Source: Cylindrospermum sp. FACHB-282
GTDB lineage: Bacteria; Cyanobacteriota; Cyanobacteriia; Cyanobacteriales; Nostocaceae
DNA length: 46,596 nucleotides
Reading direction: 5' to 3'
NCBI RefSeq assembly: GCF_014697195.1
Contig: NZ_JACJRJ010000048.1
Span: 1-46,596, forward strand
Below the pieces are notes generated by a model. That model had not been told where the DNA came from, made no database searches, and saw only the letters and a program-made list of their open reading frames with translations. How positions within the stretch are numbered: the stretch's first letter is position 1; every line of letters starts with the position of its first letter. Positions 16 through 8,754 of the stretch are shown piece after piece. The position numbers and the translations under genes were made by a program.

Positions 16-1611
16 CTAATGCTTTTGCAGATGGGATACAGGGGATTGTAGTTTCCCCAGTAAAGGTAACACTTTCAAAGTAAAAGATATTTGTCTATAT
101 TTTTTACAACTATCACTTCCCTTACACACACCGATCAAGTTCTTAGTCCCCTGGAGACGAGAAATTAAATCTGGCTGTTCTGCGGAAAAGTCACGGTAGA
201 TATCCAAGCCAATTGCTCTGGGTTGGTACTCTTCAAATCTGGCTAGGAGTTTATTGAGAGATTTGTCAGACAGGGAAGTTCCTTTCAAATACTCGCCATT
301 TTGTCGTTGATTTGCCAAGTCTTGATCGTCAATTGTCACCACCAGCAAGCGCTGATCCATCCCCTCATCAGGGCGCGATCGCATCATTTGGTCAAAGGCT
401 TTTAGTTCTCCACTTTGTAGCAGTCCCAAAAACCTCACCCCACAGATTAAGGCAGTCATCAACAGATTAGATAGCAAAGCTGCCTTAATGGGGTAGATGC
501 GGGGCACTAGTCGACTAAGTGGTATTACGGTTGTACACCTTAGCTCCTCCCAAGTGAGTGGTATCTGCGCCGGATTTTGGCAAATCACTGGCAGCCAAGT
601 AGCACAAGGAAATTTATCTTCAATCCCTTGCAACCTTTCCCGCCCTTGCCGCACCGCTTGATATAAACTTTCTCCACTAGCAAAACCTTGGAGAAAATAC
701 TTTAAGAACTCCTGGGCCACTTTATCTGGCACCGGTTCACGCATGACAATAATCTGAGGGATTTGTAAGTCACCTAGTTCTCGCGCCAACCCCAACCCAT
801 CACAAGAATTGAATATTGCTAGCTGCAAGCCACGTTCAATGGCTTTTCTGAGGGCATACTTTAACTCGCTGATTGTCAGGCTATCGGTTTTATTCAGGTA
901 TATCCGCCCAATTTCCCCATTTTCCTGACTGGAACTATGTCCGGCGAAGAACAGAATATCCCAATTTTTTGCCCAGAGGTGCTCTGTCAATTCTTGGCGC
1001 TTTGGTTCTACCACAAACTTGACATCTGCGTGATTACACTGCTGTAGTAAAGCTTGGTCAGCCTCGGTGTCAATCCCCTGACTATCACCCACAATTGCTA
1101 GAATATTTACCAATGGGTTGGGAGTACGTGGCTTGGGAATGCGATCGTAGCTTGGCGAAGACAAAGCCAGTTCAGCTTTGGGGTAACGTTCCAGCAAGTC
1201 CCAGAGATGCCAAGGTAATCGTTGCAATTGGCTATTTTCTGTTTGTACTATCACCCTGACTTCTTCTGAGGGCGATAATCGTTCCAGCCATTTCTCCTTT
1301 AGGGGACGAAACGCCTCTGCTTGGAGCCAGTGGTTGATCTGTGCCCGTAAAATACCAGCAGTGTGCTCACAATTTTGTGTCGTGGACACATTCGTTACCT
1401 GGTCATTGTCAGCATGTAGGCGATAACGGTTGCCCAACTGTCGATAACTAGACTGCCAATGGCTATAGTACAAAGGCATTTCCGGTGATGGAGGTAGCTT
1501 CCCCGATATTTCTGTTGAGGGATGCTCGCGTTCTTCGCCAATCTGGAGAGTAACTGTAAACCCCTGCTCAAAACTACCCTCTCCGAATTTCAGAACCACT
1601 AACTTACCCAT
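16..1611 (-). CDS. CHAT-CHASE2 domain protein, probably frameshifted near its 3' end
   Basis: Putative caspase-like protease coupled to an extracytoplasmic sensor. A CHAT (caspase HetF-associated) domain lies at about residues 165-345, with the His-Cys dyad visible as FFAGHSSS (His225) and AIFNSCDG (Cys270). One membrane segment follows (about 376-397), then the start of a CHASE2 domain (FDQMMRSRPDEG, LLVVTIDDQDL, IGLDIYRDF). The reading frame stops at 'SHLQKH' inside CHASE2, so the rest of that domain and its usual trailing membrane helices are missing. Another minus-strand frame is open to the window edge and reads AKALGIAFL, which resembles the 'LGFSD' part of CHASE2; this suggests a frameshift near positions 20-90. 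It lies 77 bp downstream of the DUF1822 gene on the same strand and is the last gene of the cassette. Domain calls are from motifs; the frameshift is inference. Confidence 0.8.
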   Translation of the reverse strand: MGKLVVLKFGEGSFEQGFTVTLQIGEEREHPSTEISGKLPPSPEMPLYYSHWQSSYRQLGNRYRLHADNDQVTNVSTTQNCEHTAGILRAQINHWLQAEAFRPLKEKWLERLSPSEEVRVIVQTENSQLQRLPWHLWDLLERYPKAELALSSPSYDRIPKPRTPNPLVNILAIVGDSQGIDTEADQALLQQCNHADVKFVVEPKRQELTEHLWAKNWDILFFAGHSSSQENGEIGRIYLNKTDSLTISELKYALRKAIERGLQLAIFNSCDGLGLARELGDLQIPQIIVMREPVPDKVAQEFLKYFLQGFASGESLYQAVRQGRERLQGIEDKFPCATWLPVICQNPAQIPLTWEELRCTTVIPLSRLVPRIYPIKAALLSNLLMTALICGVRFLGLLQSGELKAFDQMMRSRPDEGMDQRLLVVTIDDQDLANQRQNGEYLKGTSLSDKSLNKLLARFEEYQPRAIGLDIYRDFSAEQPDLISRLQGTKNLIGVCKGSDSCKKYRQISFTLKVLPLLGKLQSPVSHLQKH

Positions 1612-1688
1612 GACTCAGCTATTGCGTCTTCAATTTGTTAGGACTGATAATTACCCATTACTGACAGAGTTATGCAAATCTACTGGCT

Positions 1689-2708
1689 TTAAATCATGAA
1701 ATGTTCTATCACACTATGATCGTTTAATGAAATTGTCACGCTAAATTGCTCTTTGGCTTCCCCTGTCAACTTCAACTGTATATAATCATCGGATTCTCTG
1801 GCAACAACTGTCCGAACCACAGAGCCTGATCCGTCTAGAACAGTAAATTTTAATCCCTGTGGCAGGTGTATTTGATTACCTGTAGGCCACAAATTGAGGA
1901 GAATACCAGTTTGTTGGTTAACTTCGGGACTGATTTCTACCTTTAAGATAACAGGCTGATTATAGCTTTTGAGTCCCCAATCAATCAATTTTGCCCTGTT
2001 GGGGGTATTTTTTTCAACAGTCGCGCGCCAGCGAAAGGCATAGGCTGGGATGATATCCGGCATATCCCACAAGGATTCAACAGTTTGCCAGCCCTGGTCA
2101 AATATACCAGCAAACCACTGGCTTAGATTCACCAATTGCTTCTGTTGTGTCGATTGTTTGTTTAAAGCAGCACAAGGTTGCAGTTGATTTAAATGTAGTT
2201 TTTCCGTAGCAACACTAGGCACAAAACTCAGTTGCTCTATGTGCTCGATTAAGGCTTCGAGGGGTTGCAGTTGACTTAAAGGTAGTTCTTCAGTGGCAAC
2301 ATTAGGAACAAAACCCATTAGTCTTGCCTCTTGGCACGATTCGTCAATTTGTACTACCACATAACCCACCCGTTCTTCCCATGTCTCTGGGGGAATGGAG
2401 CATATAGGCTGATTTACAAGCATAGGACGACACTCCAGGCGTCCAACGGAGGGTAACTCCAAGTCAGCCACATTTGCACAGAAGCGCATAAAGCGGTTCC
2501 AACTGTCACTGACTTCGAGATTAGTAGGAATGTCCATCATTTGCATATAGTCATTCACCACCCATACAGCCAGTGTATTGAGCCTGACTTGCTCTGCTTT
2601 TTCAGAATTAGGCTGTTGGTTAGCAAACTCCTGAGCAGTTTTGATAGCTCTTTGGGTAATTGGCAAGGTTAAAGCAAAATCTTCTAGCTGATGGGTGGTG
2701 TTATTCAT
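1689..2708 (-). CDS. DUF1822 family protein
   Basis: A 339-residue cyanobacterial protein of unknown function. The N-terminal half has the typical DUF1822 pattern: helices with LNTLAVWVVNDYMQ, then WEERVGYVVVQID, and later a PAYAFRW segment. The C-terminal part is beta-rich, with strands around LKVEISPE, ILLNLWP and KFTVLDGSG. There is no signal peptide or membrane segment. Residues 133-149 (FVPNVATEELPLSQLQP) recur at 162-178 as FVPSVATEKLHLNQLQP, a 29-residue internal duplication visible in the DNA as an 87-bp period. Its neighbours are a CHAT-TPR gene upstream and a CHAT-CHASE2 gene downstream on the same strand, a recurrent arrangement in filamentous cyanobacteria as I recall it. A scaffold or substrate role for the CHAT proteins is inference only. 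Confidence 0.8.
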   Translation of the reverse strand: MNNTTHQLEDFALTLPITQRAIKTAQEFANQQPNSEKAEQVRLNTLAVWVVNDYMQMMDIPTNLEVSDSWNRFMRFCANVADLELPSVGRLECRPMLVNQPICSIPPETWEERVGYVVVQIDESCQEARLMGFVPNVATEELPLSQLQPLEALIEHIEQLSFVPSVATEKLHLNQLQPCAALNKQSTQQKQLVNLSQWFAGIFDQGWQTVESLWDMPDIIPAYAFRWRATVEKNTPNRAKLIDWGLKSYNQPVILKVEISPEVNQQTGILLNLWPTGNQIHLPQGLKFTVLDGSGSVVRTVVARESDDYIQLKLTGEAKEQFSVTISLNDHSVIEHFMI

Positions 2709-2869
2709 AGTTCAATTCCGATCCGAGTCATCTATGCTGCTATATAAATATCGCTCGCATTAACTAAATTTATGCCAAAAATTGACATTTTCCCCAGGGC
2801 AAAAAAGCTGGAGGGTGGGGATTCATTAAAGTTATCCAAAATTGTTTGTTCTCAACCCCAGGGAGTAAG

Positions 2870-2890
2870 CCCATTCCTAGAAGGGATGGG
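2870..2890 (-). terminator. Stem-loop directly after the CHAT-TPR stop codon
   Basis: An 8-bp stem with one G-T wobble (CCCATTCC at 2870-2877, GGGATGGG at 2883-2890) and a 5-nt loop sits one base beyond the stop codon of the minus-strand CHAT-TPR gene. No long U-run follows in the minus direction, so it may attenuate or stabilise the transcript rather than terminate fully before the DUF1822 gene. Confidence 0.35.
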
Positions 2891-2891
2891 T

Positions 2892-5564
2892 TTAAAGCCA
2901 ATTGCCAATTAGTACATAGGCAGCCCAAAAGCCTGGTTTGTTATAGTTGGGATGTTTGAGCAGTTTGATTTGGGCAAGACGGAGAGCTTCGGCTTTGGTC
3001 ATATTGCTGCCTTTGAGTTGTCGATAGAATTCACCTACAAACAAGGCTGTCGATTCATCATCAATTTGCCATAGGGATGCTACAGTACTGTGGGCCCCCG
3101 CTCTGATTGCTGCCCCTGCTAGACCAAGGGCAGCACGGTTATCTCCGGCGGCTGTTTGACAGGCACTCAAGACTAATAATTCTATTCTGGTTTGATTTTG
3201 ACTGCCTAAAAGAAGCTCGAAATCTTTGACTTTGATTGGACGGTCGGCGGTTAAAATAAAAGTGTTCTCAGCACGGGAACTAAATTCACCGTGGGTTGCT
3301 AAATGCACGACGTTGAATTGAGTAGCATTAATTTGCCTCTCTAGTGCCCCACGAGTGAATTTTTCATCCACTAAACTGGTTGTGGAAACTCCTGATTGGG
3401 CAATGAGTTTGAGTTCAGATTTGATGGCAGGCAAGGGGGCAAACTTGGGAAACTCTGGTGGGGGCTGAGTTAACCCAGCGGTTAGGGCGTTTAGCAGTTG
3501 TGGTACTAGTGGTTTAGGATTGAGGAGTTGCAATCCCATGCTGAGGGCGATCGCATATTTTTCAACTAAGAATTTTTTGCCATCATAGAGGGATGCCATT
3601 GGTAAATTGCGTAATGGCCCATCTAGCACAAACACCAGAGTTTTCACCCCCCTGGCTTGCAATTCTAAGTCGATGGGTTGGAGCAGCCAGTTATAAACTT
3701 TTTGTGACTGGATTTTAATGTCATTAAGGGCAGAGGGGCTAACAAGATTTTTTCGCAGTTGTAACAGGATTTTTTCTACATCTGCTTGGGAAATTTTGGT
3801 AATGTAATTCCGCAGGGGTTTGTGGGGAATTTTGACAATTACCTGAATCTCTTGAGGAAGAATAATTGGATAAAGGATTGCAGCAGTGGGATTATCTTTG
3901 TCTACCAATTGATCGAGGGCTACCTTCTGACCTTGTAGGCAAGCTTCCCGGAAAAAATTGTCTAATTCTGCCAATTGTAGGGCTTCAATCCGCTCTCTTG
4001 CTTTCTCTAAGATGATTTCGTCCTGTTTTCCTTCTAGGGATTGCAACAGTAACTCTACGGACTCTCGATATACTGGTTCTACTGTATCCCGGAAGTTAAA
4101 TTGCACCTCTGGATTAACTGCTACCAGGTCACTGCGGAGAGATTGGAGGGTTTCCACCGCTACATCATAGGCGGCGATCGCACCCGTGAAGTCTTTTTGC
4201 GCCCGCAGCAATCTACCTAACTGCCACTCTAAGCGATAGGCAATCTCTGGTGCATTGCTGAACTGAGCCAGGGTTAATCCTTGCCGGGTGAGATTTTGGG
4301 CGTATGTAATCTGTCCAGTTTTCTCGTACAAGCCCCCCAGACTTTCCAGAGTATAAGCCTCTGCCTGCTTGTCACCCAAACTCTGGGCTTGCTGGTTGGC
4401 TCTGGCAAGTAATAAGGCTAAGTCTTTAGTAGTCAATACTGAGTGAGAACCTTTATTTCCCATTTTCGACTCAGCAGCGATCGCTTTCATCACACTTTCG
4501 GCAAAGTTGATGTGAGCATAAATAGTGCTACGGCTGGGGGGGAGTTGATCGAGTTGGGAACGAATTAAGGGAAATAAAGTTTGAGCATCTACCAATTGTT
4601 GAGTCTGAATCAGTAGGCTGAGGTGATTTAGTTGTGCTTGAACCTTTGTTAATCGTGAAGGAGATACTGCGACTGCTTGTTGATAGTATTTGATTGCCTG
4701 ATCTGTTTGTTGTAAAGTCCGGGTGTGGTTTCCTAAGCTGAAAAGACTGGCTCCAATATCTACCGGGGATGACAAGCGTTGAGCAATTGCTAGACTTTCC
4801 TCTAATGCCTTAATGGACTCTTCTGGCTTGCCCACTAACAAGAGCATATCACCGAGAGCTCGGCACCCTATGGCCTTTTCTAGAGAATCTGGTTGAGATT
4901 GTAATGTCTGATTTACAAGTTTTAGTTTTTCTAGAGCCCGATTGTAAAATCCCTGCGATCGCCAGGCCTGAGCTTGATTGATCTGAACTCGCACCACACC
5001 GCTTTTATTTTTTGCTTGTTTATAAATCTCTTCTGTCTGCTTCCAAGTTGCTAAAGCTACTTCTGGCTGTCCCATTGTCAGTTGCAGACGACCTTGGATA
5101 TCGAGTGATTGGGCCAATACTGGCAAATTTTGGCTTTTATCCTGTCCTTTGAGCAACTTTAAGCTATTTTCAATTGCTTGCTTTGCCTCAGTCCACGCAC
5201 CGAGTTGCTGGTAAGCCAAGGAAAGATTGCTCAGACTGGTAGCAAGTCTGAGGATATCGCCCTGCTGTTGATATTCCTCAACTGCCTGCTTTAACACTTG
5301 TACTGCTTGAGCAAACCTTCCAGATTGATATAACACTTTACCCTGTTGCAGTAAAGAGGCAGGAGCAGACTCTGGAATGGAGGAATTAATATTGTTGATT
5401 GCCAGTTGGTATGAGGTATTGATTCTAGGAACGCTTGCTAGTACGGGTGAACTAAGGATGCACAGCAAAGCCGTTATAAAGTATAAAAACAAACGTATTG
5501 CTTTTTGCCTTTTAACTTTGACAAAATTGGAGACAGAAAGCCTAGTTACTGTATTTATGAGCAT
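2892..5564 (-). CDS. CHAT domain protein with TPR repeats and N-terminal signal/anchor
   Basis: An 890-residue TPR-CHAT protein. The chosen ATG at 5564 gives a basic N-terminus followed by a hydrophobic stretch (IRLFLYFITALLCILSS...VLA), a plausible signal peptide. The frame is open 51 codons further up, but that part only translates tandem repeat DNA. About eight TPR-like units span residues 60-480 (LLQQGKVLYQSGRFAQAVQVL, TSLSNLSLAYQQLGAW, ASLFSLGNHTRTLQQ, YTLESLGGLYEKTG). The C-terminal CHAT domain has both predicted catalytic residues, VVHLATHGEF (His about 758) and LVLSACQTAAG (Cys about 802), plus the conserved VASLWQIDDESTA and GFWAAYVLIG motifs. It follows the sigma-like gene by 127 bp and precedes DUF1822 by 183 bp. 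Family members are often annotated as CHAT/filamentous-haemagglutinin-linked proteins; the substrate is unknown. Confidence 0.85.
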   Translation of the reverse strand: MLINTVTRLSVSNFVKVKRQKAIRLFLYFITALLCILSSPVLASVPRINTSYQLAINNINSSIPESAPASLLQQGKVLYQSGRFAQAVQVLKQAVEEYQQQGDILRLATSLSNLSLAYQQLGAWTEAKQAIENSLKLLKGQDKSQNLPVLAQSLDIQGRLQLTMGQPEVALATWKQTEEIYKQAKNKSGVVRVQINQAQAWRSQGFYNRALEKLKLVNQTLQSQPDSLEKAIGCRALGDMLLLVGKPEESIKALEESLAIAQRLSSPVDIGASLFSLGNHTRTLQQTDQAIKYYQQAVAVSPSRLTKVQAQLNHLSLLIQTQQLVDAQTLFPLIRSQLDQLPPSRSTIYAHINFAESVMKAIAAESKMGNKGSHSVLTTKDLALLLARANQQAQSLGDKQAEAYTLESLGGLYEKTGQITYAQNLTRQGLTLAQFSNAPEIAYRLEWQLGRLLRAQKDFTGAIAAYDVAVETLQSLRSDLVAVNPEVQFNFRDTVEPVYRESVELLLQSLEGKQDEIILEKARERIEALQLAELDNFFREACLQGQKVALDQLVDKDNPTAAILYPIILPQEIQVIVKIPHKPLRNYITKISQADVEKILLQLRKNLVSPSALNDIKIQSQKVYNWLLQPIDLELQARGVKTLVFVLDGPLRNLPMASLYDGKKFLVEKYAIALSMGLQLLNPKPLVPQLLNALTAGLTQPPPEFPKFAPLPAIKSELKLIAQSGVSTTSLVDEKFTRGALERQINATQFNVVHLATHGEFSSRAENTFILTADRPIKVKDFELLLGSQNQTRIELLVLSACQTAAGDNRAALGLAGAAIRAGAHSTVASLWQIDDESTALFVGEFYRQLKGSNMTKAEALRLAQIKLLKHPNYNKPGFWAAYVLIGNWL

Positions 5565-5600
5565 GGCAAGAAGTACCTGACCAGGAGATTTTACCCAATT

Positions 5601-5687
5601 GGGGACTGGGGACTCTTTACTGGGTAAGAGTTTGACTAATGACCAATGACCTGTTTGACCAATGACTAATGACCTGTTTGACCAATA
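5601..5687. repeat. Short tandem repeats between sigma-like and CHAT-TPR genes
   Basis: Two copies of GGGGACT (5601-5614; complementary to the CCCCAGT heptamer repeats known from heterocystous cyanobacteria) are followed by AATGACC-type units. The latter include a 19-bp direct repeat at 5645-5663 and 5668-5686 (period 23). The same AATGACC heptamer forms a longer array at 10955-11010. Confidence 0.7.
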
Positions 5688-5691
5688 ATCT

Positions 5692-6333
5692 TCATAAATA
5701 GCCCTCAGCTTCAGCAAATTTACGCAAGCGTGGGAGACATTGGCGCTGATAAAAACTGCTTAATGTGGGAATTGGCAGATTGAATTCCGCAGACAATTCT
5801 TTCCAGCTAACTTCCGGGGGTAGACGCTTCAAAATTAACACCTGACAATTTACGTCAGGATGCCCTTTAATATAAGTAGCGCGCAGTTCTCCATCCGGGT
5901 CTGTGCTTGCCCAAATTTCCAAGTTTTCCAGTATGGGAGGTGCTTGGGGAGGAGCCACTAAATTGTCTTCAGGGTGAATGATGTCATTTTTATCACCTTG
6001 ACGGATTTTGATAGAGACTGTTGTGGCCTGTTCATGGTGCTGGGCAATGTAAAAGTCTTGCAATCTACGTTTGAGATAAGCATTCAGCCAGGTAATGATA
6101 GTGCCATAAGCGGGGTCATAGGTTTGACCTGTCAGACCGTCACAAACATTGCGGCAAAAATACAACCAAGTTTGTTGGACGGCGTCTTGATAATAGGGAG
6201 TACTTTCCCTCCAGAGCCTATTGGCAGTCAAGCGAATAATTTGCGTGAGCAGCTTTTGACGCTGAGGGCTTCCTGGTGGGTATCCACAGGCTTGGGTAAC
6301 TAAACAGCGTAGCTGTTCATCGAATTCAAGCAT
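5692..6333 (-). CDS. Sigma-70-like (ECF-type) factor, cyanobacterial cassette type
   Basis: A 213-residue cytosolic protein with the outline of a short sigma factor. The region-2-like segment contains YYQDAVQQTWLYFCRN (compare the D-x-Q-x-x-W pattern of region 2) followed by TIITWLNAYLKRRLQDF. The C-terminal region-4-like helix-turn-helix includes EVSWKELSAEFNLPIPTLSSFYQRQCLPRL. The linker between them is Pro-rich. It is the first gene of the minus-strand cassette that continues with CHAT-TPR, DUF1822 and CHAT-CHASE2, so it may control that cassette, or its promoter specificity may be tied to CHAT signalling; both ideas are inference. It lacks the extended regions 3 and 1.1 of housekeeping sigma factors. 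It could also be a degenerate sigma-like adaptor without promoter recognition. Confidence 0.7.
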   Translation of the reverse strand: MLEFDEQLRCLVTQACGYPPGSPQRQKLLTQIIRLTANRLWRESTPYYQDAVQQTWLYFCRNVCDGLTGQTYDPAYGTIITWLNAYLKRRLQDFYIAQHHEQATTVSIKIRQGDKNDIIHPEDNLVAPPQAPPILENLEIWASTDPDGELRATYIKGHPDVNCQVLILKRLPPEVSWKELSAEFNLPIPTLSSFYQRQCLPRLRKFAEAEGYL

Positions 6334-6521: not shown

Positions 6522-7898
6522 CTACAGTCCCAGCCAAGAGATCAGGTTTTCCCACCAGGAATTAGCCTGATAAGGAGTGGTTAACTTCATTTTTTGGCGA
6601 ATGTCTTGAATTTTCCAGTTGGTTAACTTGGCCAGGGTTTGGGCCTCTTGTTCAAAGCGTTGGGGCAAAGACCGCTTGTATTCTCTGCCTGCTTGACACT
6701 TAAGTGTGCCTGTAAACGGATGTTGTAAGATGTAACGTCCTTGGAAAGATTCGCGGTTGGCTGTTTCTTGGAACATCGGGTCTTCAGGGAATTTGTCACG
6801 GGTATAGCGGACGTGTAGACGGGTGATGAAGACATTGCTTGTTGGCAAGGGACGAGGAAAGCCAGGAGGTGCTGAACTATCCCATGTAGGATTATTATCC
6901 TGCCAAAATACACCGGCTTGTTTGAGTTCCTCTGGAGTCAGGGGTTCGGCAGAACAGGGATCGCAACTACTCATATCCCAGGCATATTCGACAAAACCAA
7001 CTTTCCGGTCTTCTTTAACGTAGGAGTTTTGGAACAGGGATTTATAAAATTCGCCAAATTCATTTTTGACAAATATGGGAATATTGGCGTTGGAGGGAAT
7101 TTTGACTGTTCGGTAGTTGGTGATTTCTGAGAATCCCTTGGGGGATAAAATGTAGACAATCAGGTCTTGCTCAGTGGTGGCGTTAATCATCCCCAAACGA
7201 ATGGGCAGCATGAACTTGGGTGATTTGTAGGAAATTTGCAGTGGACGCAAGAGTTGATAGCCGGATGCCTCGAATTTATCTAAGTTGACTTTGGCAACAA
7301 AGAATTTCATTGAGGAACGAATGTAGGGTTTCAGTAACTGTTTCGCTCCTTTGGGAATTTTGTAGCCATTGCGGTTGAGCCAAGTTTCTAGTCCACCAGA
7401 TTCTTTGGCGCTGAGAATCAAAATATCGTATTCACCAACGTTGAAACGGGCCTCAATTGTGACGCCTAAACTGCGATCGCCTCTCTGCTTGGTCTCAGAT
7501 AAACGGCTTGCTCCTAAGTTAGGTGCTGCTGAGGGCATTACATTTTCGTAAGCTGTGGCACAGGGGTCAGAGTCGAAATATTCTACCAATCGGGGGGCGC
7601 TAAAAGCATCCAGACGCTCGATAATCTTGGGTTCGGCAACACGAACTTGCTCTTTTTGCAACACTGTTGGCACTGGTATGACGATCGCAAAATCTTTGGC
7701 TGGGCCTTGAAAGTCGTTGGCCATGGTGAGCACGGTGCGATCGCCTGATCGCGCCATCACCACCTGAGAAGTCTTGTTATATAGCTTGGCATCGGCTTTG
7801 GCCACATAAAATCCACAAAATGCCCAAGCTGCGGGGGCAAAGCACAGAACTGCTACAAATACCACCAGTAATGAGGCTAAAAATCGAAAATGTTTCAT
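6522..7898 (-). CDS. DUF2330 domain exported protein
   Basis: A 458-residue protein with a clear Sec signal peptide (FRFLASLLVVFVAVLCFAPA, cleavage probably after AWA) followed by the family hallmark CGFYVAKADAKLYNKTSQVV. The body matches DUF2330 in pattern: VVMARSGDRTVLTMANDFQGP, FAIVIPVPTVL, and a Cys pair in SSCDPCSAEPLT. The protein ends with an amphipathic Trp-rich tail (SWWENLISWLGL). Function is unknown; a periplasmic or outer-surface location is inferred from the signal peptide. It lies 25 bp downstream of an RnfD-like membrane protein on the same strand, a pairing that suggests co-expression and perhaps a membrane-associated redox or assembly role. Confidence 0.85.
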   Translation of the reverse strand: MKHFRFLASLLVVFVAVLCFAPAAWAFCGFYVAKADAKLYNKTSQVVMARSGDRTVLTMANDFQGPAKDFAIVIPVPTVLQKEQVRVAEPKIIERLDAFSAPRLVEYFDSDPCATAYENVMPSAAPNLGASRLSETKQRGDRSLGVTIEARFNVGEYDILILSAKESGGLETWLNRNGYKIPKGAKQLLKPYIRSSMKFFVAKVNLDKFEASGYQLLRPLQISYKSPKFMLPIRLGMINATTEQDLIVYILSPKGFSEITNYRTVKIPSNANIPIFVKNEFGEFYKSLFQNSYVKEDRKVGFVEYAWDMSSCDPCSAEPLTPEELKQAGVFWQDNNPTWDSSAPPGFPRPLPTSNVFITRLHVRYTRDKFPEDPMFQETANRESFQGRYILQHPFTGTLKCQAGREYKRSLPQRFEQEAQTLAKLTNWKIQDIRQKMKLTTPYQANSWWENLISWLGL

Positions 7899-7923: not shown

Positions 7924-8754
7924 TTAAGACTCAGGAGTTATCAAAACTTCTCCCATTACCTGATTACTTTCTTCCTTTATCCAAGAAAATCGTGGACTTA
8001 GCCAGAGAGTATCTAGGAGAATGGTTAAGGGAGCTAGGGCAAACAGCGCCCAGAAAACTGCGGTAGAGAGAAAAAAATAATTCCGCAAAATAAAAGTCAA
8101 TATGGCGATAGATACTGCCCAAGTGATCCGCCCAATTCGGGCATTGGGAATTGACCGGGGATCAGTCACCATAAATAGGGCAAATAGCAGCAAAGACCCA
8201 CTCATCAAGCGATGCCAGTATACATCCCAAGTCCACCCTAGCCAGAGATTACGCACCGCTTCCAGCAAGGAGTAAGCGCCTAAAAAAGCTGCTGTGGTGT
8301 CCCAACGACCAACCCGTTGCAAAATCAGTCCGCCAGTTCCAGCAAATAGCAGCCCATACCACCATTGTTCACCCCACTGTCCTGGGGAAACCCAAGCATC
8401 GTTTGTGAGTACTAAGGCGGAAATGATGCCAAAATTGGCAGGATTAAAGAAATGCTTTTCACCAACTTGGAAAATAAATTTGCTGGCGATCGCCATTACT
8501 GCGGCTATTGCCATTGTCGTCCAGTGGTCTGCCCGCAATAATAAGCTGAGTCCCAGAGAGGTAATTAAGGGACTGCGAATATTGAGCTTTGGTTCTTTGG
8601 TGACTAATGACAATAGCCATTGGGTGATTAGACAAGTGGCGATCGCCACCCCAATCAATTCTGGTCTCAGTGTCCAGTCTCTTGTACCAATCCCCAAAAC
8701 CAAAAACAAACTGAGAAAAAGAATTTGATAGTCTCGTATATCTTTAAGCAACAC
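7924..8754 (-). CDS. RnfD/NqrB-like polytopic membrane protein
   Basis: A 276-residue, about nine-helix membrane protein related to the D/B subunits of Rnf and Na+-NQR complexes. Visible family motifs are FNPANFGI, a Gly-rich helix pair, and VTDPRSIPNARIGR. In NqrB/RnfD the covalent FMN sits on Thr of an S-G-A-T motif; here the corresponding stretch reads MSGSLLLFALFMVTDP, without the Thr, so covalent flavin attachment looks unlikely. No other Rnf/Nqr subunit is nearby; the gene is instead paired with the downstream DUF2330 gene (25-bp gap). It is therefore probably a solitary cyanobacterial RnfD-like protein of unknown role rather than part of a sodium pump. Confidence 0.7.
   Translation of the reverse strand: MLLKDIRDYQILFLSLFLVLGIGTRDWTLRPELIGVAIATCLITQWLLSLVTKEPKLNIRSPLITSLGLSLLLRADHWTTMAIAAVMAIASKFIFQVGEKHFFNPANFGIISALVLTNDAWVSPGQWGEQWWYGLLFAGTGGLILQRVGRWDTTAAFLGAYSLLEAVRNLWLGWTWDVYWHRLMSGSLLLFALFMVTDPRSIPNARIGRITWAVSIAILTFILRNYFFLSTAVFWALFALAPLTILLDTLWLSPRFSWIKEESNQVMGEVLITPES

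Follow-up and report, generated by a model that had tools for sequence, protein, structure and literature searches.

Regulated proteolysis of the DegS/RseA/sigmaE type passes an envelope signal through a protease and an anti-sigma factor to an ECF sigma factor; the zf-HC2, or ZAS, proteins are a family of anti-sigma factors. DegS/RseA/sigmaE-type proteolysis is mentioned in the available part of a 2022 account of type III-E CRISPR (PMC10028731), according to which the TPR-CHAT protein Csx29 cleaves Csx30, an inhibitor of CASP-sigma. Kaur et al. 2021 (eLife; PMC8195603, as far as its accessible text goes) described EACC2-caspase proteins, some of them with CHASE2, in the neighbourhood of DUF1822 and an ECF sigma factor, and proposed autopeptidase activation with the ECF sigma factor as an output; a preliminary description of the DNA analysed here had proposed a similar scheme.

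The present locus has the same gene set as the EACC2-caspase system in the accessible text: a constant N-module plus caspase-like domain, a CHASE2 C-terminus (split by an insertion in the present genome), an ECF-like sigma factor and DUF1822. The association of these genes is, on that text, already published. The same text makes no mention of DUF928, of a TPR-CHAT gene in this place, of co-occurrence in trans or of an anti-sigma-like fusion, and the additions made here are a broken CHASE2, a DUF928-containing core, co-occurrence in trans and a distant fusion. Type III-E CRISPR CASP, as the available part of PMC10028731 presents it, likewise combines in one place a CHAT protease, an ECF-like sigma factor and a partner made of two domains joined by a flexible linker, and the common point would be a probable protease-controlled release of sigma; the difference is that the present system would sense through a membrane CHASE2 domain. 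DUF1822 is likened to Csx30 by domain layout only. An envelope signal, a protease, an anti-sigma factor and an ECF sigma factor are common to DegS/RseA/sigmaE and the switch proposed below, although in the present case a caspase-like protease would be anchored in the membrane itself, and DUF1822 is without a membrane segment. The reading preferred, with belief and doubt about equally balanced, is that the locus is an interrupted cyanobacterial variant of the EACC2-caspase/ECF sigma/DUF1822 system, in which DUF1822 restrains sigma and CHAT gates its release.

The window (the whole 46,596-nucleotide stretch analysed, one entire contig of a filamentous cyanobacterium) contains the four same-strand ORFs of the preliminary description, on the minus strand and at the coordinates given for them; their features are listed in Table 1. 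Pfam matched CHAT and CHASE2 in the frame 16–1611 (CHASE2 positions 3–100 of 257), and TPR and CHAT in 2892–5717 (CHAT E 1.1e-56). Both CHAT domains possess the expected His and Cys motifs, GHS/NSCDG and THG/SACQ, as read from the translations, and both motifs were recovered in 139/147 EACC2-CHAT and 59/65 TPR-CHAT proteins (loose patterns, length-filtered, duplicates removed). The N-module, equated with the published EACC2 domain by architecture only, was constantly joined to the caspase-like domain: 72 of 73 N-module-profile matches were also matched by the adjoining CHAT profile. Among proteins of >700 aa the C-terminus was CHASE2 in 55/56 and 81/81, from loci collected through DUF1822; this nearly uniform C-terminus differs from the highly variable C-termini in the accessible text of PMC8195603. 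The host genome has two further sigma-DUF1822 loci, which the preliminary description had passed over; one of them, a paralogous locus on contig C66, contains an uninterrupted CHAT-CHASE2 frame. There were 18 CHAT matches in the host genome.

Table 1. Positions in the window of the cassette genes, their domains and the adjoining insertion-sequence end.
Feature	Position	Strand	Basis
ECF-like sigma factor, 213 aa, first cassette gene	5692..6333	-	AlphaFold2 model and PDB fold match
TPR-CHAT protease, ~890 aa, signal-peptide-like N-terminus	2892..5564 (longest ORF to 5717)	-	Pfam
DUF1822 protein, 339 aa	1689..2708	-	Pfam E 2e-79
EACC2-type N-module, CHAT and start of CHASE2, interrupted	114..1611	-	Pfam; junction compared with relative L216
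CHAT domain of interrupted gene (protein 148-328)	628..1170	-	Pfam; independent match 628-1206
CHASE2, first part (profile 3-100)	133..456	-	remainder on G000:C32:89180-89785
Insertion-sequence end, repeated in genome	1..113	.	copies in genome

The CHAT-CHASE2 gene had been taken as complete, and this proved false. The window's first 113–116 bases have eight other copies in the genome at 98–100% identity (three at contig starts, one inside contig C29 and four at high contig coordinates), so that some 30 residues at the C-terminal end of the 531-aa ORF come from insertion-sequence DNA, which the mechanically called frame 16–1611 takes in; the gene is broken at about position 114. A related copy in C29 encodes Resolvase and OrfB_IS605 proteins. 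The remainder of CHASE2 (profile 101–257) lies at the end of contig C32, followed by a DUF928 gene, a fifth cassette gene absent from the preliminary description, and together with the insertion-sequence end it rules out the 531-aa ORF as a complete protein. In the Cylindrospermum relative L216 the five-gene order is unbroken and CHASE2 intact. The C-terminal sensor domain is present in the host genome but split by insertion, and for this reason the window copy of the cassette is probably non-functional or deregulated there. It is unlikely, nonetheless, that the locus is a decaying pseudo-operon that does nothing in its host: the insertion sequence does split CHASE2, but the frames of the remaining three genes are unbroken, and the interrupted gene still encodes CHAT and its first membrane segment.

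The 213-aa protein had no Pfam match, and Sigma70_r2 was matched weakly in 4/21 members of the sigma alignment (best E 0.0013); in a PDB sequence search with the sigma profile the best match, a weak one, was ECF SigE (E 0.071). Its AlphaFold2 model (pLDDT 75.5) had E. coli sigmaE as best Foldseek match in the PDB (E 0.019, TM 0.35), and the titles of the top 17 matches name sigma factors, complexes of sigma with anti-sigma, or transcription complexes. The sigma fold ascribed to this protein is thereby upheld as a predicted, ECF-sigma-like fold, the best E being only 0.019.

The DUF1822 model (AlphaFold2, pLDDT 80.3) comprises an alpha+beta N-domain, a low-confidence linker (164–189) and a beta-sandwich C-domain. 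Its Foldseek matches were mostly Ig-like sandwiches, and among the PDB matches listed an anti-sigma domain was absent; the one PDB sequence match (E 0.61) was not credible. The accessible text of PMC8195603 labels DUF1822 a TPR protein, a label that does not suit the window protein, which has no TPR Pfam match and in whose model sixteen strands are accompanied by seven helices that do not form tandem repeats. The HxxxCxxC motif was found in 0/191 cyanobacterial DUF1822 ORFs; the family is therefore not classed as ZAS, and a zinc-type (ZAS, zf-HC2) anti-sigma factor was rejected for it. A literature search covering few subscription journals returned no statement of DUF1822 as an anti-sigma protein.

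Gene order was compared across 100 cyanobacterial regions with 104 DUF1822 ORFs in all (two from the host genome; one gene, split by a stop, was counted twice). A sigma-like gene lay directly upstream on the same strand within 300 bp in 81/104 (median gap over the 81 pairs 25 bp) and downstream in none; a CHAT-CHASE2-type gene lay directly downstream within 300 bp in 55/104. In 19 control regions sigma-like, DUF1822 or EACC2-CHAT matches occurred in none, and TPR-CHAT in one. Association of these families had been claimed beforehand, and it is clear that it lies far above chance. Of 80 named loci, 77 had EACC2-CHAT no more than 400 bp after DUF1822, and in 69 DUF928 followed within 5 kb. The recurrent core is, by gene order, sigma-DUF1822-(EACC2-CHAT-CHASE2)-(DUF928). 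It is not invariable: 38/104 DUF1822 ORFs had a sigma gene and no EACC2-CHAT within 1 kb, and 11/104 the converse, some contigs ending early, and no sigma of the cassette's family was seen within 7 kb in 50 of the 71 named loci with room upstream. Across 60 genomes of the host's family, 36 contained both sigma and DUF1822 of the cassette's clade, three sigma only, none DUF1822 only and 21 neither, as raw genome counts with phylogeny not taken into account. More than 20 kb of the same contig separated the two genes in 10 of the 36 pairs, and in 13 the genes were on different contigs. Within-genome partner shuffles reached the observed sigma-DUF1822 correlation in 0/500 cases for the long sigma class and 17/500 for the short class, congruence which linked inheritance alone could produce; the distances of within-genome pairs alone showed no significant correlation (5 pairs, p 0.62; 24 pairs, p 0.21).

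By the same gene-order comparison, TPR-CHAT is an addition that most relatives lack. As its start, the ATG at 5564 (890 aa) is preferred to the listed TTG, which overlaps the sigma gene. The signal peptide attributed to the protein is matched by a signal-peptide-like N-terminus, with a hydrophobic segment at residues 76–94 of the longest ORF, and a simple hydropathy scan detected such an N-terminal segment in 23/25 relatives, compared with a hydrophobic segment in 0/82 DUF1822 and 0/27 sigma proteins. TPR-CHAT is thus probably exported, as judged by sequence; DUF1822 and sigma appear to be cytosolic, so the CHAT domain on their side of the membrane should be that of the EACC2 protein alone. 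The proposal that the two CHAT proteases act jointly on sigma is not supported on this ground, nor by gene order, as just 8/80 named relatives have TPR-CHAT between the sigma and DUF1822 genes (some loci being cut by contig ends). The PDB sequence search matched TPR-CHAT to TPR proteins only and CHAT-CHASE2 to nothing. That two unrelated modules lie side by side, one a unit running from sigma through DUF1822 and EACC2-CHAT-CHASE2 to DUF928 and the other an exported TPR-CHAT that simply landed between the first two genes of that unit, falls just short of an even call. TPR-CHAT lies ≤1.5 kb upstream of DUF1822 in 21/80 named loci, as set against the eight in which it separates the two genes, it is not in that place in more distant loci (L235, L241 and L248, for example), and in relative L098 a TPS secretion-domain protein is also encoded at that place. 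The window order, on the other side, recurs in records from Nostoc, Anabaena and Cylindrospermum as well as in congener G313, and so has been kept in the clade.

The bearing of DUF1822 on sigma was approached through a distant Cyanobacteriota family with genomes of ~1.8 Mb, in which a profile of the DUF1822 N-domain plus an anti-sigma-like segment had matches in 72/78 genomes. The fusion gene has a sigma gene directly downstream in 19/22 loci (15/16 when six loci inspected first are left out), and homology of its N-domain to DUF1822 is supported by Pfam (8e-17) and hhalign (E 2.4e-7). This is a zf-HC2/ZAS-like segment fused to a DUF1822 N-domain beside a sigma gene, in which it differs from the motif-less cyanobacterial DUF1822. 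zf-HC2 exceeded the Pfam cut-off in one genome (L280/L286), fell below it in two others (L289 and L285) and was recognisable in only 2/25 fusion proteins; most copies of the segment are hence without zinc, and it is by alignment that the segment is assigned an anti-sigma nature. Eleven secondary matches to the fusion profile were obtained, and each of the four inspected was a short zf-HC2 protein encoded immediately behind a canonical ECF sigma gene; a profile rebuilt from the 25 distant proteins recovers one of these four at E 1e-3. The sigma factors of the two lineages align over region 4 only (hhalign probability 30, E 5e-4). CHAT was found in 0/22 distant-family genomes searched, which makes the sigma-DUF1822 link independent of CHAT. 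Comparison with these distant relatives suggests that DUF1822 holds sigma in check, and DUF1822 probably regulates sigma as an anti-sigma factor. A broader view, plausible but leaning towards doubtful, is that DUF1822 would be a phylum-wide sigma-restraining family older than its caspase-like partner, fused in one family, where it would need no CHAT, to a zinc-finger-type anti-sigma segment; in photosynthetic cyanobacteria it would instead bear a linker and beta-sandwich under a membrane-tethered CHAT, a caspase-gated sigma release convergent with CRISPR CASP.

Sequence supplies the domains, the topology-like features, the gene order, the co-occurrence across genomes and the distant fusion beside a sigma gene; from these we infer how sigma would act, how DUF1822 would restrain it, which way the signal would run and where cleavage would come in, as follows. 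The 213-aa protein would act as an ECF-type sigma factor, and DUF1822 as its dedicated regulator, most likely an anti-sigma factor binding it in the cytosol. The EACC2-CHAT-CHASE2 membrane protein would have its CHAT domain facing the cytosol and its CHASE2 domain the exterior, and a signal at CHASE2 would activate CHAT, perhaps conditioned by exported DUF928 and, in the host's clade, by TPR-CHAT. Active CHAT may then cleave DUF1822, or itself, freeing sigma to redirect transcription. Sigma as output, with DUF1822 as adaptor or substrate, is the part of the preliminary scheme that fits the distant fusion.

DUF1822 might instead be a positive partner of sigma (a chaperone, coactivator or promoter-recognition subunit), with CHAT cleavage ending the response or maturing the partner. 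Co-linearity, co-occurrence and co-divergence would fit any obligate partner, and cyanobacterial DUF1822 has no recognisable anti-sigma domain, but the anti-sigma-like segment of its distant homologues, beside a sigma gene, makes this improbable. Kaur et al. 2021 proposed, in the accessible text of PMC8195603, an autopeptidase with an ECF sigma factor as one output, and CHAT could accordingly process its own protein, sigma-DUF1822 serving a conflict or cell-death system as its transcriptional arm and not as a protease substrate. We give this reading a small share of our belief: it sits poorly with the 38/104 DUF1822 ORFs that have a sigma gene but no nearby EACC2-CHAT gene, with the sigma-DUF1822 link in genomes where CHAT was not found (0/22 searched), and with PADLOC, which returned only TPR and BovA matches for TPR-CHAT and none for the other three window proteins.

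To our knowledge, cyanobacteria have many caspase-like proteins, the substrates of most of which are unknown. If DUF1822 is an anti-sigma factor cut or released by EACC2-CHAT, the substrate of one such protease would be pinned down, together with its membrane sensor and the transcriptional response that it controls, in a switch open to test in genetically tractable Nostoc or Anabaena strains, and CHAT proteolysis controlling a sigma factor would have a non-CRISPR case.

The window comprises contig C57 in its entirety, from a genome of 6.1 Mb, and carries four cassette genes on the minus strand, read from 6333 to 1 (see table). For the TPR-CHAT gene, the ATG at 5564 makes a better start than that of the listed ORF, because it yields a signal-like N-terminus and avoids overlap with the gene before it; with this start, the gaps between cassette genes are 127, 183 and 77 bp. 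Apart from the Pfam matches tabulated, no cassette protein matched NCBIfam at curated cut-offs, and in a PADLOC scan of the same proteins TPR-CHAT alone gave matches, to TPR and BovA. The gap between the genes for the 213-aa sigma-like protein (hereafter sigma) and TPR-CHAT is filled with short repeated words (window 5630–5690), possibly a scar left by TPR-CHAT insertion. ORFs similar in size to the two upstream of sigma in the window, judged by size only, precede sigma at L216, L253, L257, L258 and L269, and in some genomes with such ORFs DUF1822 is located elsewhere.

Cassette genes, their upstream neighbours and a related insertion sequence in the same genome
Feature	Position	Strand	Remarks
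213-aa protein (sigma)	window 6333–5692	-	no Pfam match
TPR-CHAT protein	window, listed ORF 5717–2892; preferred ATG 5564	-	Pfam TPR and CHAT
DUF1822 protein	window 2708–1689	-	Pfam DUF1822
CHAT-CHASE2 protein (EACC2-CHAT)	window 1611 to contig end	-	Pfam CHAT and CHASE2
DUF2330 protein and NQR2/RnfD-like protein	window 6522–7898 and 7924–8754	-	upstream of sigma
Related insertion sequence (L279)	G000:C29:85300–87800		resolvase-type 187 aa and TnpB-type 403 aa; frames overlap by 4 bases

By sequence comparison, the CHAT-CHASE2 gene is interrupted in this genome. Window bases 1–113/116 recur as eight further copies at 98–100% identity (three at contig starts, one inside contig C29 and four at high contig coordinates), and there is a ninth match of 48 bases at 79%. 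A CHASE2 profile search placed profile positions 3–100 in the window and positions 101–257 some 120 bp short of the end of another contig, C32, the final ~108–113 bases of which have seven further copies (five at 100%, one at 95% and one at 83%). Set against the unbroken 774-aa orthologue in Cylindrospermum sp. NIES-4074 (L216), the junction falls within CHASE2. The related element copy on C29, which has matches to the two ends at its borders, encodes a resolvase-type and a TnpB-type protein, a pairing suggestive of the IS607 group. Next after the C32 half of the gene lies a DUF928 gene (Pfam E 2.4e-60) with a signal-like N-terminus; the original order was therefore most likely sigma, TPR-CHAT, DUF1822, CHAT-CHASE2, DUF928, matching L216. 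At a second locus of the genome, on contig C66, the CHAT-CHASE2 frame is uninterrupted.

The preliminary description had proposed testing whether these families co-occur, and the association proved real. DUF1822 matches were found in 187/291 genomes of the phylum at E ≤0.001, in 176 of them above the family cut-off. Using profiles built iteratively from proteins of the window or its genome, we compared 100 DUF1822 regions (covering most of the places listed by this search, two of them in the window genome) with 19 regions from genomes of the same group as controls. A sigma-like gene lay within 300 bp on the same strand, always upstream, for 81/104 DUF1822 ORFs, and an EACC2-CHAT gene within 300 bp downstream for 55/104; the 19 controls contained no sigma-like, DUF1822, EACC2-CHAT, DUF928 or CHASE2 match, and one contained a TPR-CHAT match. 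Classified by sigma ≤4 kb upstream and EACC2-CHAT ≤1 kb downstream, with some regions ending at contig ends, 48 of the 104 ORFs had both partners, two had TPR-CHAT as well, 38 had sigma only, 11 had EACC2-CHAT without sigma (four of these with TPR-CHAT upstream) and five had no partner. The window genome itself has three DUF1822 genes, two directly after a sigma-like gene; in the window, TPR-CHAT separates the two genes.

The sigma-like genes fell into two non-overlapping profile groups, short (the window type) and long; two long sigmas scanned had Sigma70_r4 above and Sigma70_r2 below cut-off. At L034, L035, L039 and similar loci, the next gene after several CHAT-less long-type sigma-DUF1822 pairs encodes a protein of 364–381 aa; its start, where seen, presumably resembles those of Gfo/Idh/MocA oxidoreductases. 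At L103, L112 and L134 the expected place of sigma upstream of DUF1822 is held by a 474–481-aa protein (no Pfam match in the L103 copy, the sole one scanned), possibly a third class of partner.

A scan of GTDB genomes, which may lack records close to the genome of the window, gave named relatives that overlap the 291-genome set, so that the two sets of counts are not additive. Among the best 80 of 184 loci, EACC2-CHAT followed DUF1822 within 400 bp in 77, DUF928 lay within 5 kb in 69, and sigma was directly upstream in 11 and no more than 7 kb away in 21. Of the 71 loci whose upstream sequence extended for 4.5 kb or more, 50 had no member of this sigma family within 7 kb. The window-like order of sigma, TPR-CHAT and DUF1822 was found in 8 of these best 80. 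Loci of Oscillatoria (L235), Symploca (L237, L248), Pantanalinema (L225) and Scytolyngbya (L250) had the order sigma-DUF1822-EACC2-CHAT-DUF928 with no TPR-CHAT in that place, and Moorena loci the same order with no recognised DUF928. At L099 (8067–10288) the same place shows a second type of insertion, with a Bpu10I-like restriction endonuclease and a C5 cytosine methylase between TPR-CHAT and DUF1822. At L098 (10860–13406) a TPS secretion-domain protein stands between sigma and TPR-CHAT, a hint that TPR-CHAT may be part of a two-partner secretion set.

Sigma and DUF1822 also kept company at a distance. Across 60 genomes belonging to the window's family, with cut-offs set by eye at breaks in the scores listed, sigma scored >300 bits in 39 and DUF1822 >470 bits in 35, to which the window genome is added (its DUF1822 match is split by an insert into 299 + 216 bits). 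All 36 DUF1822-positive genomes were among the 39 with sigma, and 21 had neither (Fisher p 2.5e-13, a test that ignores kinship); the three with sigma alone (G089, G315, G320) each had lower-scoring DUF1822 matches. Of the 36 pairs, 8 lay within 5.5 kb, 5 at 5.5–20 kb, 10 farther apart within a single contig and 13 split between contigs. Among 20 regions surrounding sigma genes matched by this profile, several had sigma beside TPR-CHAT and several had neither partner near. Sigma and DUF1822 distances were correlated (Spearman 0.78 over 53 long-class loci, 0.59 over 35 short-class loci), and swapping partners within genomes lowered the correlation, the observed value being reached in 0/500 (long) and 17/500 (short) swaps; within-genome locus pairs alone (24 and 5) gave no significant correlation.

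The predicted structure of sigma (21 sequences, pLDDT 75.5, pTM 0.40) was mainly helical in its N- and C-terminal parts, with a low-confidence joining stretch at 105–131; its 17 best PDB matches were by title sigma factors, sigma/anti-sigma complexes and transcription complexes, none at E <0.001. That of DUF1822 (53 sequences, pLDDT 80.3, pTM 0.56) had a confident alpha+beta N-domain (about 11–160), a low-confidence linker (164–189) and a beta-rich C-domain; no TPR was seen, and the best listed PDB matches were mostly Ig-like sandwiches, one at E <0.001.

A distant family in the same phylum but outside the window's class, with genomes of ~1.8 Mb and probably the gut Gastranaerophilales group, includes many genomes with one weak DUF1822 match. 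In five of these and in G214, of a further family, the match began near the N-terminus of proteins of 520–1040 aa, ending at profile position 131–170 in five and 258 in one. In G230 (L280/L286, one gene) zf-HC2 follows directly, above the Pfam cut-off; zf-HC2 matches fell below cut-off in G256 (L289) and G214 (L285), and none was found in the L284 protein. A profile of this fusion matched 72/78 distant-family genomes. All 25 loci parsed, of 30 retrieved, contained the DUF1822 match; zf-HC2 and HxxxCxxC each occurred in 2/25, both times the G230 and G256 genes, the remainder being zinc-less at the aligned place. Secondary profile matches fell at 11 places, and each of the four fetched was a short zf-HC2 protein encoded immediately behind a canonical ECF sigma gene; when rebuilt from the 25 fusion loci, the profile recovered just one of these four at E 1e-3. 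A sigma gene lay directly downstream of the fusion gene in 19/22 loci (lacking in L289, L291 and L335; profile built from 4 of the 22, matching 15/16 later ones), and the four such sigmas scanned had Sigma70_r4 or r4_2 at or above the Pfam cut-off. CHAT was found in 0/22 of these genomes, and the sigma-DUF1822 partnership thus exists without CHAT. On these matches, the DUF1822 member of the pair in the distant family resembles an anti-sigma protein. At L288 (11347–14307) and L290 (11779–14745) the sigma is followed by a protein of 986–988 aa, with double zinc ribbon and TPR matches in the L288 copy.

Topology was assessed by a simple hydropathy scan of length-filtered proteins rather than a trained predictor. 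In L216, the intact CHAT-CHASE2 protein carries a single membrane segment ahead of CHASE2 and a pair of adjacent ones at its end, and 76/79 relatives have two to four; hydrophobic N-terminal segments were present in TPR-CHAT (23/25) and DUF928 (75/75) and absent from DUF1822 (0/82) and sigma (0/27). This pattern would place EACC2-CHAT, DUF1822 and sigma together, probably in a common cytosol, with TPR-CHAT, DUF928 and CHASE2 probably outside it. In the probable mechanism, sigma would be restrained, or otherwise controlled, by DUF1822, and EACC2-CHAT, tethered to the membrane through its CHASE2 sensor, would relieve that control through proteolysis. We consider it probable that DUF1822 is a dedicated sigma regulator, rather likelier than even that it is an anti-sigma, and a tentative proposition, at somewhat under even chances, that it is a CHAT substrate, in which case any cut would be expected in its linker, close to residues 164–189. 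The nearest tested precedent for such a switch is Csx29-Csx30-CASP-sigma, in which, according to passages of PMC10028731, a TPR-CHAT protease cleaves an inhibitor of an ECF-like sigma. The gene set and the idea of an autopeptidase with a sigma factor as its output already appear in sections of Kaur et al. 2021 (PMC8195603); since the gene set is already published, the main interest of the locus lies in DUF1822 as a putative anti-sigma.
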